A DNA stretch of 64,000 nucleotides from Archangium violaceum (GTDB lineage: Bacteria > Myxococcota > Myxococcia > Myxococcales > Myxococcaceae), in assembly GCF_016887565.1 (NCBI RefSeq), contig NZ_CP069396.1:2941001-3005000 (forward strand), read 5' to 3'. Below, piece after piece: positions 34,974 through 51,217 of this stretch; position 1 is the stretch's first letter; each line of letters starts with the position of its first letter. The translations under genes were made by a program, and so were the position numbers. The notes beneath the pieces are model-generated. The model did no database searches. It was not told the DNA's origin and worked only from the letters and a program-made list of their open reading frames with translations.

Positions 34974-36179
34974 TCACGCAGCGGCCGCCGGCCGGCACTC
35001 GGCGACGAGCGCCGCCACCGCCTCGTCCCAGGGCAGATCGCGCTGCTCCCCGTCCCGCCGCCGCAGCCGGACGGCGTTCTTCTCCACCTCGCGGTTGCCC
35101 ACCACCACCAGCCACGGCGCACCGGCCTGGTGCGAGTCGACGATCTTCCGTGACAGCGACTCCCCGCGGGCATCCACGCTCGCGCGGCAGCCCACCTCGC
35201 GCAGCTTCGCGGCGAAGCGCTCGGCGTAGCCCGCGGCCGCTTCACCCACGGACGCCACGATGACCTGCTCCGGCGCGAGCCACGCGGGCAGGGCGCCCCC
35301 GTGGTGCTCCAGCAGCATGCCCATGAAGCGCTCCAGGCTCCCGAGGATCGCGCGGTGGAGCATCATCGGCCGGCGCTTCTGTCCCGAGGCGTCCACGTAG
35401 TGGAGGTCGAACCGCTCCGGCAGCACCAGGTCCAGCTGGATCGTCCCGCACTGCCAGCTGCGGCCGAGCCGGTCCTTCAGGACGAACTCCAGCTTGGGCG
35501 CGTAGAAGGCTCCCTGGCCGGGCTGCATGACGCACTCGAGCCCCGCCTGTTTCGCGGACTCGAGCAGGAGCGACTCCGCGACGTCCCACATCTCGTCGCT
35601 TCCGGCGCGCTGGGCGGGACGGCTGGAGAAGGCCACCTCCACGTCCTCGAAGCCGAAGTCGGCGTAGAAGGCGTGGAGCGAGCGGCAGAAGCGGGAGACC
35701 TCCTCGCGCATCTGCTCCTCGGCACAGAAGACGTGGCCATCATCCTGCGTGAACTGGCGCAGGCGGAACAGGCCGTGGAGCGCTCCTCCGGGCTCGTTGC
35801 GGTGCACGAGCCCGAACTCGCCCAGCTTCACGGGCAGGTCGCGGTAGCTGGGGGACATGCGTTGGACGAGCTGGATGTGGCCCGGGCAGTTCACCGGCTT
35901 GACCGCCGAGTGCCGCCCTCCGTCCTCGACGAGCAGGAACATGTTCTCGCGGAAGTTGTCCCAGTGGCCGCTGCGCTCCCAGATGGGCTGGGCGAGGATT
36001 TGCGGCGTCCTCACCTCGAGGAAGCCATCGCGTTGCATCTGCTGCCGGACGCGGTTCTCGATGAGGCGGTACAGCAGGTAGCCGCGCGGGTGCCAGAAGA
36101 CCATGCCGGGCGCCTCCTCCTGCAGGTGGAAGAGGTCCAGGCGCTGGCCGAGGGAACGATGATCGTGTGCTTCGAGCAT
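34974..36179 (-). CDS. thrS: Short threonyl-tRNA synthetase lacking the TGS and editing domains
   Basis: A 401-residue class II synthetase; full ThrRS has about 640. It starts directly at the catalytic domain and ends with an anticodon-binding domain. Zn ligands Cys98 (KPVNCPGH), His149 (FTQDDGHVFC) and His275 (LHRAILGSLERF) are present, as are motif 2 Arg127 (VHRNEPGG) and motif 3. It charges tRNA-Thr but should not clear Ser-tRNA-Thr because the N2 editing domain is missing. It is probably a stress or starvation paralogue of a normal thrS elsewhere. A Thr-rich leader peptide lies 107 bases upstream. Confidence 0.9.
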   Translation of the reverse strand: MLEAHDHRSLGQRLDLFHLQEEAPGMVFWHPRGYLLYRLIENRVRQQMQRDGFLEVRTPQILAQPIWERSGHWDNFRENMFLLVEDGGRHSAVKPVNCPGHIQLVQRMSPSYRDLPVKLGEFGLVHRNEPGGALHGLFRLRQFTQDDGHVFCAEEQMREEVSRFCRSLHAFYADFGFEDVEVAFSSRPAQRAGSDEMWDVAESLLLESAKQAGLECVMQPGQGAFYAPKLEFVLKDRLGRSWQCGTIQLDLVLPERFDLHYVDASGQKRRPMMLHRAILGSLERFMGMLLEHHGGALPAWLAPEQVIVASVGEAAAGYAERFAAKLREVGCRASVDARGESLSRKIVDSHQAGAPWLVVVGNREVEKNAVRLRRRDGEQRDLPWDEAVAALVAECRPAAAA

Positions 36180-36197
36180 TTCAGACTCCGAATCGGG

Positions 36198-36273
36198 AAA
36201 AGAGGCCTTCCGGTCGGAGCACTGAGCGCTTGCACGGACGCCCCGGCCGGACAGGCGGGGCAGGGAACCGTGC
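36198..36273 (-). promoter_or_regulatory. Candidate Thr attenuator (alternative hairpins plus T-run) before the short ThrRS
   Basis: Reading the minus strand after the leader stop: a double stem GCACGG/CCGTGC (36273-36268 with 36237-36232) enclosing GCCCCG/CGGGGC (36261-36256 with 36245-36240); and a possible competing stem CCTGTCCGG (36255-36247) with CCGGAAGG (36213-36206), followed by CCTC then TTTT at 36201-36198. The first part of the double stem can also pair with leader codons (36299-36294 with 36274-36269). Structures are by eye. Confidence 0.55.
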
Positions 36274-36286
36274 GTTCGTCAGCTCA

Positions 36287-36364
36287 TCACGCGCGCACGA
36301 ATCCACTCCCGCCGAAGAGAGTGGCGGTGGTGGTCGTGGTGGTGATGGCGGAAACGAAGCTCAC
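36287..36364 (-). CDS. Threonine-rich leader peptide (putative attenuator peptide)
   Basis: A 25-codon reading frame too short for normal gene calling: GTG start at 36364, TGA at 36287-36289. After Ile at codon 7 come six consecutive Thr codons (codons 8-13; five ACC, one ACG), then Ala, and one more Thr (ACT). This resembles the thrL leader of enterobacteria. It lies 107 bases before the ThrRS start in the same direction. A good -35 is upstream, but no ribosome site, so a leaderless or near-leaderless message is likely; TTG at 36373 is an in-frame alternative. Confidence 0.7.
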   Translation of the reverse strand: MSFVSAITTTTTTATLFGGSGFVRA

Positions 36365-36371
36365 GTCAAGC

Positions 36372-36400
36372 AAGGTGCGTGCGCGCGCATTTTTTGTCAA
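36372..36400 (-). promoter_or_regulatory. Promoter of the leader/ThrRS unit
   Basis: TTGACA at 36400-36395 is a perfect -35. With a 17-base spacer the -10 reads CACCTT (36377-36372), a weak match. Transcription would begin about at the leader GTG (36364). The promoter follows directly after the hairpin that ends the ankyrin gene. Confidence 0.5.
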
Positions 36401-36419
36401 GCCGGGTTCCGGCGACTGT

Positions 36420-36450
36420 CCGGCCGCCGTGCGGTGTGCGCGGCGGCCGG
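36420..36450 (-). terminator. Hairpin after the ankyrin gene
   Basis: CCGGCCGCCG (36420-36429) pairs with CGGCGGCCGG (36441-36450), 11-base loop, 13 bases past the ankyrin stop. It would insulate the Thr leader from the catalase/ankyrin transcript. Confidence 0.65.
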
Positions 36451-36463
36451 TGTGAGGCTTTTG

Positions 36464-37015
36464 TCAGGAGGCCCGCTGCTCGCGCGTCCCTCGCAACTTC
36501 TCGAGCCGTTCCGCGGTGCCACGGGCCCCCATGGCCCGGGCGTAATCGAGCGCCGTGCGCCCGTCGGTATCCTTGCGCTCCGGCTCCGCGCCATACGCGA
36601 CCAGCAGCTCGAGCACGTCCTTGCGGTCGAACATCGCCGCGAACATGAGGGCCGTCTTGCCGTCCGGCCCCGTGCCGTCGACGCGAGTGCCATGGTCCAG
36701 CAGGAGCCGCGCGATGGCGAGGTTGCCCTTGAAGGCGGCACCGGCCAGCGGCGTCTGCCCGCGATCGTTGAGCCGCTCCGAGTCGGCCCCGTGCTTCAGG
36801 AGCACACGGGTGGTCTCCTCGTGGCCGAGGTAGCTCGAGAGCATCAGCAGGGTGTCGCCCCGCTCGTTGGTGAGGTTGGCGGGCAGCCCCGCTTCGAGGA
36901 GCCTCCCCAGGTGGGCCGTCTCCCCGGCCCTCGCGTGCTGGAAGGCCGTGCGCGCCAGCTCCAACACCTCGTTGTCCGTCACCATCGGTTGCGAATCAGG
37001 GGTCTGTGCCTTCAT
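36464..37015 (-). CDS. Ankyrin repeat protein next to catalase
   Basis: A 183-residue protein with four to five ankyrin repeats (NERGDTLLMLSSYLGHEETTRVLLKHGA, NDRGQTPLAGAAFKGN, GPDGKTALMFAAMFDR, DTDGRTALDYARAMG). No signal peptide. It follows the catalase gene by 35 bases in the same direction. In Pseudomonas aeruginosa an ankyrin protein, AnkB, is encoded beside katB and is needed for full catalase activity; a similar helper role is likely here by analogy. Confidence 0.88.
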   Translation of the reverse strand: MKAQTPDSQPMVTDNEVLELARTAFQHARAGETAHLGRLLEAGLPANLTNERGDTLLMLSSYLGHEETTRVLLKHGADSERLNDRGQTPLAGAAFKGNLAIARLLLDHGTRVDGTGPDGKTALMFAAMFDRKDVLELLVAYGAEPERKDTDGRTALDYARAMGARGTAERLEKLRGTREQRAS

Positions 37016-37050
37016 GGGAAAGTCCTCGAGAGTGGGGAAGGGGAGTGGAC

Positions 37051-38523
37051 TCAGCGCGAGCGGCGGCGCTCGTGGACGGCCTTCGCGATGCGCGAGCCGT
37101 ACTCCTCGTCGGCGTTGCGGAAGTGGGCGATGCTGCGCGCGATGATGTCCTCGCGGCTCACCTGCGAGAGGCTGCCCGCGATGTTCGTCACCAGCCGCTC
37201 GCGCTCCGCCTCGCTCATCACCCGGTACAGGGCACCGGCCTGCACGAAGTCGTTGTCCTCGGCGTGCCGCACGGAGACGTAGGTGCCGGTGGCTCCACTG
37301 AGGGACACACCGAGGCCCGTGTCCTCGTTCGTCTGCGCGGGGCCGTCGAAGCTGTTCGGCTCGTAGTTCCTGCTGCGCCCGCCGTTGCCGTCGAAGCTCA
37401 TGGCGCCGTCACGGCCGTAGTTGCGCGCGCCGCCCGCCACGCCCCTGGGCGAGTTCACCGGCAGCCGGGTGTGGTTGATGCCGAGCCGGTAACGGTGCGC
37501 GTCGCCGTAGGCGAAGAGGCGCGCCTGGAGCATGCGGTCCGGCGAGGGGCCGATGCCCGGCACGAAGTTGGACGGGTCGAGCGCCGCCTGCTCCACGTCG
37601 GCGAAGTAGTTGTCCGGGGCCCGGTTGAGCACCAGCTGGCCCACCTCGATGAGGGGGTAGTCCTTGTAGGGCCACACCTTGGTGAGGTCGAAGGGGTTGA
37701 AGCGGTAGGTGGGGGCGTCGGCCTCCGGCATGACCTGCACCTTGAGCGTCCACGAGGGGAAGTCGCCGCGCTCGAGCGCCGCGTAGAGGTCGCGCTGGTG
37801 GTACTGCGGATCCCTCCCGCCGATGGTCGCGGCCTCCTCGGAGGAGAGCGTGCGGATGCCCTGGTTCGTCTTGAAGTGGAACTTCACCCAGAAGCGCTCG
37901 CCCTGGGCGTTCACCCACTGGAAGGTGTGCGAGCCGAAGCCATCCATGTGCCGCAGCGTCGCGGGGATGCCGCGGTCACCGAAGAGCCAGGTGAACTGGT
38001 GCGTGGCCTCGGGCGAGTGCGAGAAGAAGTCCCACTGGTTGTCGGGCTCCTGGCAGTTGGTGAACGGGTCGTACTTCTGCGAGTGGATGAAGTCCGGGAA
38101 CTTGATGCCGTCGCGCAGGAAGAAGACGGGGGTGTTGTTGCCCACCAGGTCCCAGTTGCCGTCCTCGGTGTAGAAGCGGACCGCGAAGCCGCGCGGGTCG
38201 CGAGCGGTGTCGGGGGCACCCTTGGAGCCGGCCACGGTGGAGAAGCGCAGGAAGGCCTCGGTGCGCTTGCCCTTGGCGTTGAAGAGCTTCATGCGCGTGA
38301 AGCGCGAGATGTCGGGGTTGGTCACCTCGAAGTAGCCGTAGGCGCCCGAGCCCACCGCGTGCACCACGCGCTCCGGGATGCGCTCGCGGTTGAAGCGGGC
38401 GAGCTTCTCCAGCAGGTGGTGGTCCTGCAGCAGCACCGGCCCCGTGGCTCCGGCGGTCTGCGAGTGCTGGTTGTTGGCGACGGGGGCGCCGGCCTCGGTG
38501 GTCAGATGGGGACGGTTGGACAC
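37051..38523 (-). CDS. Monofunctional haem catalase
   Basis: A 490-residue small-subunit catalase. Distal His lies in [16 protein letters not shown], the Asn in [11 protein letters not shown], and the proximal Tyr in [14 protein letters not shown]. It destroys hydrogen peroxide in the cytoplasm. GTG 38523 ([12 protein letters not shown]) is chosen since AGGAG lies about 9 bases upstream; the open frame extends further up but runs into the divergent oxyR promoter. It is divergent from oxyR with an OxyR-type site between them. Confidence 0.94.
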
Positions 38524-38598
38524 GCGAGCTCTCTCCTGGGGTGGCGTCACTGCGTTCGTGACAGGGAGAAAAGTAGAGAGCTCGCGCTGAGTTGCCCA

Positions 38599-38635
38599 AG
38601 ACATCGTTCCGATGGGATTGATAGGCTGGGGCTAT
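38599..38635 (+). promoter_or_regulatory. OxyR-type operator in the catalase-oxyR intergenic region
   Basis: ATAG at 38621, seven bases, CTAT at 38632-38635 is an exact half of the OxyR consensus ATAG-N7-CTAT-N7-ATAG-N7-CTAT. Going upstream, the register continues with CGAT at 38610-38613 and AGAC at 38599-38602, which are weak matches. It lies 16 bases before the oxyR ATG. Confidence 0.6.
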
Positions 38636-38650
38636 CGGTTCTCCAGACCC

Positions 38651-39580
38651 ATGCCCTCCATCAACGACATCTCCCTGAGGCAGTTGGAGTATGTGGTCGC
38701 CGTCGCCGACCTGCTCGGTTTCCGGCGGGCGGCCGAGCACTGTCACGTCTCCCAGCCCGCCTTGAGTGCGCAGATCCAGCAGCTCGAGGACGTGTTGGGG
38801 GTGAAGCTCTTCGAGCGGGACAAGCGCCGGGTGATGCTGACCGCGGCCGGGGAGGACCTGGTGGCGAGAGCGCGCCGGGTGCTCACCGAGGCCGGAGACA
38901 TCCTGTCCGCGGCGGCCCGTTTGTCCGACCCCTTCGCGGGCAGTCTGCACCTGGGCGTCATTCCCACCATCGCGCCCTATGTGTTGCCCGAGGTGGTGCC
39001 CGCCCTGACGAAGCAGTACCCCCGGCTCCAGCTCCGGCTGCGCGAGGAGAAGACGGAGCTGCTCGTGAAGGCGCTGGGAGAGGGGCGGCTGGACGCGGCG
39101 TTGCTGGCGCTCGAAGCCGACCTGGGTGACCTGGAGCACGCCGTCATCGCGGAGGATCCGTTCGTCGTCGCCGCACCCCCGGGGCACGCGCTGGCGAAGA
39201 AGAAGCAGGTGCAGCTCCGGGACCTGGACGAGGAGGATGTGCTCCTGCTGGAGGACGGCCACTGCTTCCGGGGACAGGCGCTCGCCCTGTGCACGCGGGT
39301 GGGGGCTCGCGAGGTGGACTTCCGCGCCACCAGCCTCACCACGCTGGCGCAGATGGTGATGTCGGGGGACAGCGGCATCACGCTGCTGCCCTCGCTCTCG
39401 GTGCCCATCGAGAACCGGCTGGGCCAGCTCGTGGTGCGTCCCTTCTCGGACCCGGTGCCGAGCCGCACCCTCGTCCTCGTCTGGAGGCCGGGCTACCCCC
39501 GGGCCGATGCGCTCCGGGAGCTCGCGGGCACGCTCCGTTCCGTGTGGCCCGGGCTCAAGAGTCCGGCGAAGCGCTCCTGA
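38651..39580 (+). CDS. oxyR: Hydrogen peroxide-sensing regulator OxyR
   Basis: A 309-residue LysR-type regulator. The DNA-binding helix-turn-helix is at about residues 18-50. The redox cysteines are both present: LLLEDGHCFRGQALALC gives Cys205 and Cys214, nine apart as C199 and C208 in E. coli OxyR. H2O2 should form this disulfide and activate catalase. It starts at 38651; the open frame upstream covers the operator and is not coding. It converges with gspC. Confidence 0.95.
   Translation: MPSINDISLRQLEYVVAVADLLGFRRAAEHCHVSQPALSAQIQQLEDVLGVKLFERDKRRVMLTAAGEDLVARARRVLTEAGDILSAAARLSDPFAGSLHLGVIPTIAPYVLPEVVPALTKQYPRLQLRLREEKTELLVKALGEGRLDAALLALEADLGDLEHAVIAEDPFVVAAPPGHALAKKKQVQLRDLDEEDVLLLEDGHCFRGQALALCTRVGAREVDFRATSLTTLAQMVMSGDSGITLLPSLSVPIENRLGQLVVRPFSDPVPSRTLVLVWRPGYPRADALRELAGTLRSVWPGLKSPAKRS

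Positions 39581-50816: not shown

Positions 50817-51217
<401 letters not shown>

Follow-up and report, generated by a model that had tools for sequence, protein, structure and literature searches.

In enterobacteria, thrL of the thr operon and pheM of pheST are attenuators, and pheM controls a synthetase. The second, inducible threonyl-tRNA synthetase (ThrRS) of B. subtilis, encoded by thrZ, is under T-box control. Vecchione and Sello (2010, cited in PMC4787780) are said to have described an auxiliary TrpRS gene of Streptomyces coelicolor that is under ribosome-mediated transcriptional attenuation. In bacilli, histidine leader peptides precede the hisZ/hisS paralogues (PMC2965389). The second ThrRS of Anabaena (thrS2, or T2) is editing-impaired, keeps its editing domain, and is repressed by Zur (PMC4787780). 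Leaderless leader peptides are also known, for example that of S. meliloti trpL (PMC7298713).

The window considered here, the whole stretch of 64,000 nucleotides that was analysed, comes from an Archangium-type myxobacterium genome of 13.2 Mb. On its minus strand, a short ORF rich in Thr codons precedes a gene for a short ThrRS (Table 1). From its sequence and that of its homologues, the element probably acts as a ribosome-mediated attenuator through which the supply of charged tRNA-Thr governs translation of this auxiliary, editing-less ThrRS. A search of open-access papers, which leaves most subscription journals outside its coverage, found no description of the element.

Table 1. Features of the Thr leader and the short ThrRS gene, in window coordinates.
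Feature	Coordinates	Strand	Remarks
Promoter	36372..36400	-	-35 TTGACA 36400-36395, 17-nt spacer, -10 CACCTT 36377-36372; conserved spacing
Predicted transcription start	36364 (or within ~2 nt)	-	7 nt past the -10 hexamer; predicted from promoter geometry
Leader ORF	36287..36364	-	GTG start, 25 codons, translation VSFVSAITTTTTTATLFGGSGFVRA, then stop
Segment A	36320..36343	-	control codons (Thr x6, Ala, Thr)
Segment B	36293..36313	-	GGCGGG...CGUGCG; pairs with A or C
Segment C	36254..36274	-	CGCACGG...GCCCCGCC; pairs with B or D
Segment D	36232..36251	-	UCCGGCCGGGGC...CCGUGC; pairs with C or E
Segment E	36209..36220	-	GCUCCGACCGGA, anti-Shine-Dalgarno; pairs with D or F
Segment F	36186..36191	-	UCGGAG, Shine-Dalgarno of the ThrRS gene; pairs with E
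Short ThrRS	34974..36179	-	401 aa, catalytic and anticodon-binding domains only

Threonine leader and its promoter

The Thr codons of the window's leader are ACC ACC ACG ACC ACC ACC, with Ile before and Ala-Thr after, as the sequence-only reading had stated and as is seen in the translation. The stop codon that it placed straight after Ala-Thr lies further on, as ten codons (LFGGSGFVRA) intervene. Its gap of 107 bases between the leader stop and the ThrRS gene agrees with the coordinates (ATG at 36179), and the TTGACA that it reported upstream of the leader is present. It had also held that the run of Thr codons is hard to attribute to chance. A start codon and four Thr codons at this spacing from TTGAC are found at a single site in the 13.2-Mb genome, that of the window's leader (the reversed pattern, used as a control, matched twice); a stronger argument comes from conservation in relatives. 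The Thr leader before the short ThrRS gene is real and lies far beyond chance.

A short ThrRS was found in 39/116 related genomes, and a Thr-rich leader was located at the matching place in all 44 upstream regions examined. All 28 genomes outside the set used for model building likewise have both the short ThrRS and the leader, giving 72/72 homologues in total with the run of cognate codons in a short upstream ORF that characterises ribosome-mediated leader-peptide attenuators. The frame and the hairpins, on whose conservation upstream of the same ThrRS the sequence-only reading had staked its proposal, are kept in every examined relative that has this enzyme.

A covariance model built from the region downstream of the Thr codons, which thus lie outside the model, detected exactly one copy of the element in each of 67/145 genomes of the order, and a separate protein search found the short ThrRS in the same 67 genomes. 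The element is therefore restricted to this gene. A search of the window's own genome for further copies gave chance-level matches only. When leaders carrying a run of Phe or His codons were sought there at this promoter spacing, one Phe match and, apart from the thrS leader, one His match turned up, neither of them convincing. No relative of the element was found in the viral contigs searched. The genes around the ThrRS gene (ankyrin protein, catalase, malate/lactate dehydrogenase) are common to the closest relatives only, and the leader stays with the ThrRS gene. In the window, the regions 36464-38604 (minus) and 38612-39580 (plus) show an ankyrin-repeat protein downstream of a catalase, and a divergent LysR regulator.

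In a genome from another family of the same phylum, the frame VRRAPHGATTTTTVKSGAVVVCAR with its stop codon, read directly, follows TTGACA at a nearly equal distance. Two genomes (G051 and G057) encode more divergent short ThrRSs, with ~40% identity to the full-length query region, preceded by Thr-rich leaders of different sequence, MGSLFATTTCTTPRTGPCTAA and MASRCATTTCTTPHLGPRTAA; the covariance model does not detect these two leaders, and TTGACA was not noticed upstream of them. They lie ~165 bases before the ThrRS start and carry GGGCCC-type inverted repeats at the positions of segments B, C and D (L151 and L152). Like architecture in leaders of unlike sequence suggests strong or repeated selection.

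The two halves of the ORF are conserved in different ways. In the leader tracts, Thr is encoded by ACC (208), ACG (92) and ACT (54), and between close leaders synonymous changes make up 90/156 single-base codon differences in the Thr tract, the pairs compared being not independent. Of 72 leaders, 46 have the GGCGG motif that follows the tract in frame 0 and 26 have it in frame 2, the latter count wrongly including two leaders that have no GGCGG motif. As GGCGG is read in two frames, that half of the ORF is conserved as RNA, and the first half as codons. This pattern bears on the idea that the small peptide itself acts in trans, with the RNA structure secondary, for which S. meliloti peTrpL is a precedent (PMC7298713). 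Of the peptide, nothing but the start and the Thr tract is conserved, and its C-terminal half occurs in two frames and varies between species, which makes a function in trans very unlikely.

The distance from TTGAC to the leader start codon is exactly 36 nt in 37/44 homologues and 35-39 nt in the others. In these 44 homologues the -10 element, mostly CAYCTT or similar, is separated from the -35 hexamer by 17 nt and from the start codon by 7 nt. A generic promoter scan of 35900-36600 did not call the leader promoter because the -10 hexamer (CACCTT) is weak, and the case for a promoter rests on the conserved spacing. With the geometry TTGACA-N17-CAYCTT-N7-start codon, the transcript would begin at the start codon of the leader and not downstream of it, and the leader mRNA is thus predicted to be leaderless.

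The short ThrRS and its full-length paralogue

In the short ThrRS, Pfam recognises the class II catalytic core and the anticodon-binding domain and nothing else, and solved full-length ThrRSs align to it only from about their residue 240 onward. Hence, neither the TGS domain nor the editing domain is present in the short ThrRS. Its zinc ligands, C98, H149 and H275, are invariant in the alignment of 56/56 short ThrRSs of relatives. Matches to the short ThrRS in four genomes (G003, G004, G040 and G047) were reported with one internal stop codon.

A full-length ThrRS, of which the short enzyme is a paralogue, is encoded elsewhere in the same genome. A tRNA gene with its promoter lies ahead of the full-length gene (L002 541-770), upstream of which no Thr leader was found. 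In the family sample, 56/58 genomes have the full-length gene, and the short gene, where present, is a second copy. The short ThrRS would be made only when charged tRNA-Thr is scarce, as a backup or inhibitor-tolerant enzyme, and it perhaps relies on the full-length enzyme for editing.

RNA segments and the predicted switch

Six segments of the leader RNA (A-F) give five mutually exclusive helices, A:B, B:C, C:D, D:E and E:F. The leader region folds better than 200/200 shuffles (z -4.15), in keeping with the strong stems claimed between leader and gene. Single-sequence folding favours A:B, C:D and E:F, and the RNAalifold consensus of 38 sequences is B:C, which is kept in nearly all of them.

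Covariation, which the sequence-only reading had named as the support to look for, is seen in two of the helices. In C:D, GCACGG:CCGUGC is replaced by GCGCGGA:UCCGCGC in one genus, and in E:F, CUCCGA:UCGGAG is replaced by CUCCGU:ACGGAG and CCGUGU:ACACGG. A partner-swap test on 15 representatives, uncorrected for phylogeny, gave P=0.0006 for C:D and, with the same sample and likewise uncorrected, P=0.0015 for E:F. The values for B:C (0.086) and D:E (0.57) come from helices too invariant for an informative test. B:C exceeds shuffles with a mean z of -2.3. The D:E helix, which takes in the anti-Shine-Dalgarno, is ~11 bp long and in most species has a single mismatch; its mean z of -2.3 is post hoc, since its arm was redefined to include UCCGGC after a first version, with the arm from CGGGGC, had failed against shuffles (mean z 0) and was discarded.

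The leader stop codon lies between segments B and C in 72/72 sequences. Hence, a ribosome at the stop codon would cover B and leave the C motif free. In the nascent RNA of the window, folded as far as E, a ribosome stalled short of B gave values of 0.99 for B:C and 1.00 for D:E, and a ribosome at the stop codon gave 0.99 for C:D and 0.01 for D:E. The corresponding medians over 64 sequences were 0.66 (B:C) and 0.98 (D:E) for the stalled ribosome, and 0.92 (C:D) and 0.01 (D:E) for the ribosome at the stop.

Full-length folding at equilibrium gave a weaker picture. With B:C forced, D:E rises in 48/64 sequences, and E:F falls in 35/64 and rises in 7; in the window, E:F is still at 0.92, with the Shine-Dalgarno closed. 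When 30 coding bases were added, no net effect on exposure of the Shine-Dalgarno was seen across the 64 sequences, which counts against a switch. The model therefore holds only if the choice falls while the RNA is still being transcribed, as it does in classical attenuators. Exclusive helices set by the position of the ribosome, with the stop codon placed so that the second segment is covered, are thus indicated by prediction and covariation, and less strongly by equilibrium folding.

The proposed mechanism is as follows. With transcription beginning at the leader start codon, a ribosome could load on the 5' end once it has emerged. At low levels of charged tRNA-Thr, the ribosome would stall on the Thr codons of A with A:B melted; B:C would then form and D:E follow, so that the anti-Shine-Dalgarno is occupied, F is free and the ThrRS is ON. 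When Thr-tRNA is ample, the ribosome would reach the stop codon and cover B, leading to C:D and leaving E free for F (OFF). If no ribosome loads, A:B would form and the ThrRS would also be OFF.

The output of the switch can be read in two ways. The sequence-only reading had proposed attenuation as in thrL and had taken a TTTT run as part of the attenuator. Of this, the Thr leader with ribosome-mediated attenuation is supported, as the leader and hairpins are conserved, and the terminator output is not. A terminator scan of the minus strand over 35900-36600 found no terminator-like site, and relatives do not keep the T run, having TCTTTC, TCTCCC or TTTCAC in its place. An intrinsic terminator was rejected as the output on these two grounds. 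The intrinsic terminator that precedes the gene in transcription attenuators of the thrL/trpL type was thus not found here. The last helix, E:F, pairs with the Shine-Dalgarno, covaries, and has in D:E an alternative in which the anti-Shine-Dalgarno is predicted to find another partner, an arrangement that fits Shine-Dalgarno-sequestering (translational) attenuators.

A transcriptional output from the same Thr-codon sensor, in which C:D or a later hairpin terminates or Rho stops the untranslated leader, is the usual one for amino-acid leader peptides, and the A-D layout matches the classical 1-2-3-4 attenuator exactly. Besides the missing terminator-like site, it is opposed by the lack of a conserved U run after either C:D or D:E; D:E acting as a terminator would turn the gene off under starvation, and the covarying helix over the Shine-Dalgarno would be left unexplained. 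We regard such an output as unlikely, though Rho-dependent termination may still play a part. Since the last helix, which covaries, shuts off the Shine-Dalgarno, and no terminator was found, translational control is the best reading of the sequences and is favoured over the terminator model.

The Rfam search gave no match to the Thr operon leader, T-box or any other family for the element, at the gathering score across the window and with no relevant hit at E up to 10 in the leader region. Elsewhere in the window, RNase P RNA of bacterial class A is located at 50823-51214 on the minus strand (Rfam RF00010, 305 bits). T-box elements do control synthetases, including that encoded by B. subtilis thrZ, but the conserved Thr codons and translation frame, together with the lack of an Rfam match, leave a T-box or other known riboswitch class with hardly any probability. 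Autoregulation, in which ThrRS binds an operator resembling tRNA-Thr within the leader of its own gene, is known for the E. coli enzyme (thrS; PMC2965389), and here too a structured 5' region adjoins the Shine-Dalgarno. Such an operator would leave unexplained why the Thr codons lie in frame, why the promoter-to-start spacing is fixed and where the stop codon is placed, and no tRNA-like Rfam match was found; it is therefore a highly improbable explanation.

Ribosome-mediated attenuation is well supported by the sequences, and the element appears to work like leader-peptide attenuators in each feature compared at this level except the intrinsic terminator. A fuller account, which we hold tentatively and a little short of even chance, is that of a six-segment RNA relay: stalling on a leaderless Thr peptide would free a Shine-Dalgarno ~140 nt downstream, in a device dedicated to an editing-less backup ThrRS, so that myxobacteria would produce a less accurate enzyme if the main ThrRS or threonine fails, and perhaps gain tolerance to natural ThrRS inhibitors of competitors.

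Meaning and comparison with known systems

If this reading is true, a synthetase in Myxococcota is under leader-peptide control in which the leader is predicted to be leaderless and the output is translational instead of through a terminator, and the known ways in which bacteria sense uncharged tRNA would be extended. A condition-specific role is hinted at for an editing-less second ThrRS across Myxococcaceae. It can be tested directly whether threonine stress makes these predators induce a ThrRS that is error-prone or tolerates inhibitors.

The transcript of S. meliloti trpL starts with the leader start codon (PMC7298713), as is predicted here; that system serves Trp biosynthesis by transcription attenuation, and its 5' end is known rather than predicted. 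The bacillar hisZ/hisS genes share with the myxobacterial locus a cognate-codon leader peptide before a duplicated synthetase gene, but they concern His in Firmicutes and were found via Rho-independent terminators, of which the myxobacterial leader has none. A run of cognate codons and alternative hairpins are also found in thrL and pheM, which differ in having an intrinsic terminator and a leader with its own ribosome-binding site and which, judging from Rfam, have no sequence relation to the myxobacterial element. B. subtilis thrZ and Anabaena thrS2 are, as here, second ThrRS genes kept for special conditions, whereas their control is by T-box and Zur, respectively, and thrS2 keeps its editing domain. 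In the auxiliary TrpRS of S. coelicolor, as at this locus, a leader peptide reportedly makes a second synthetase gene respond to the amino acid that its enzyme uses; that case involves Trp, Actinobacteria and a transcriptional output, whereas the present one involves Thr, Myxococcota and a probable output at the Shine-Dalgarno.
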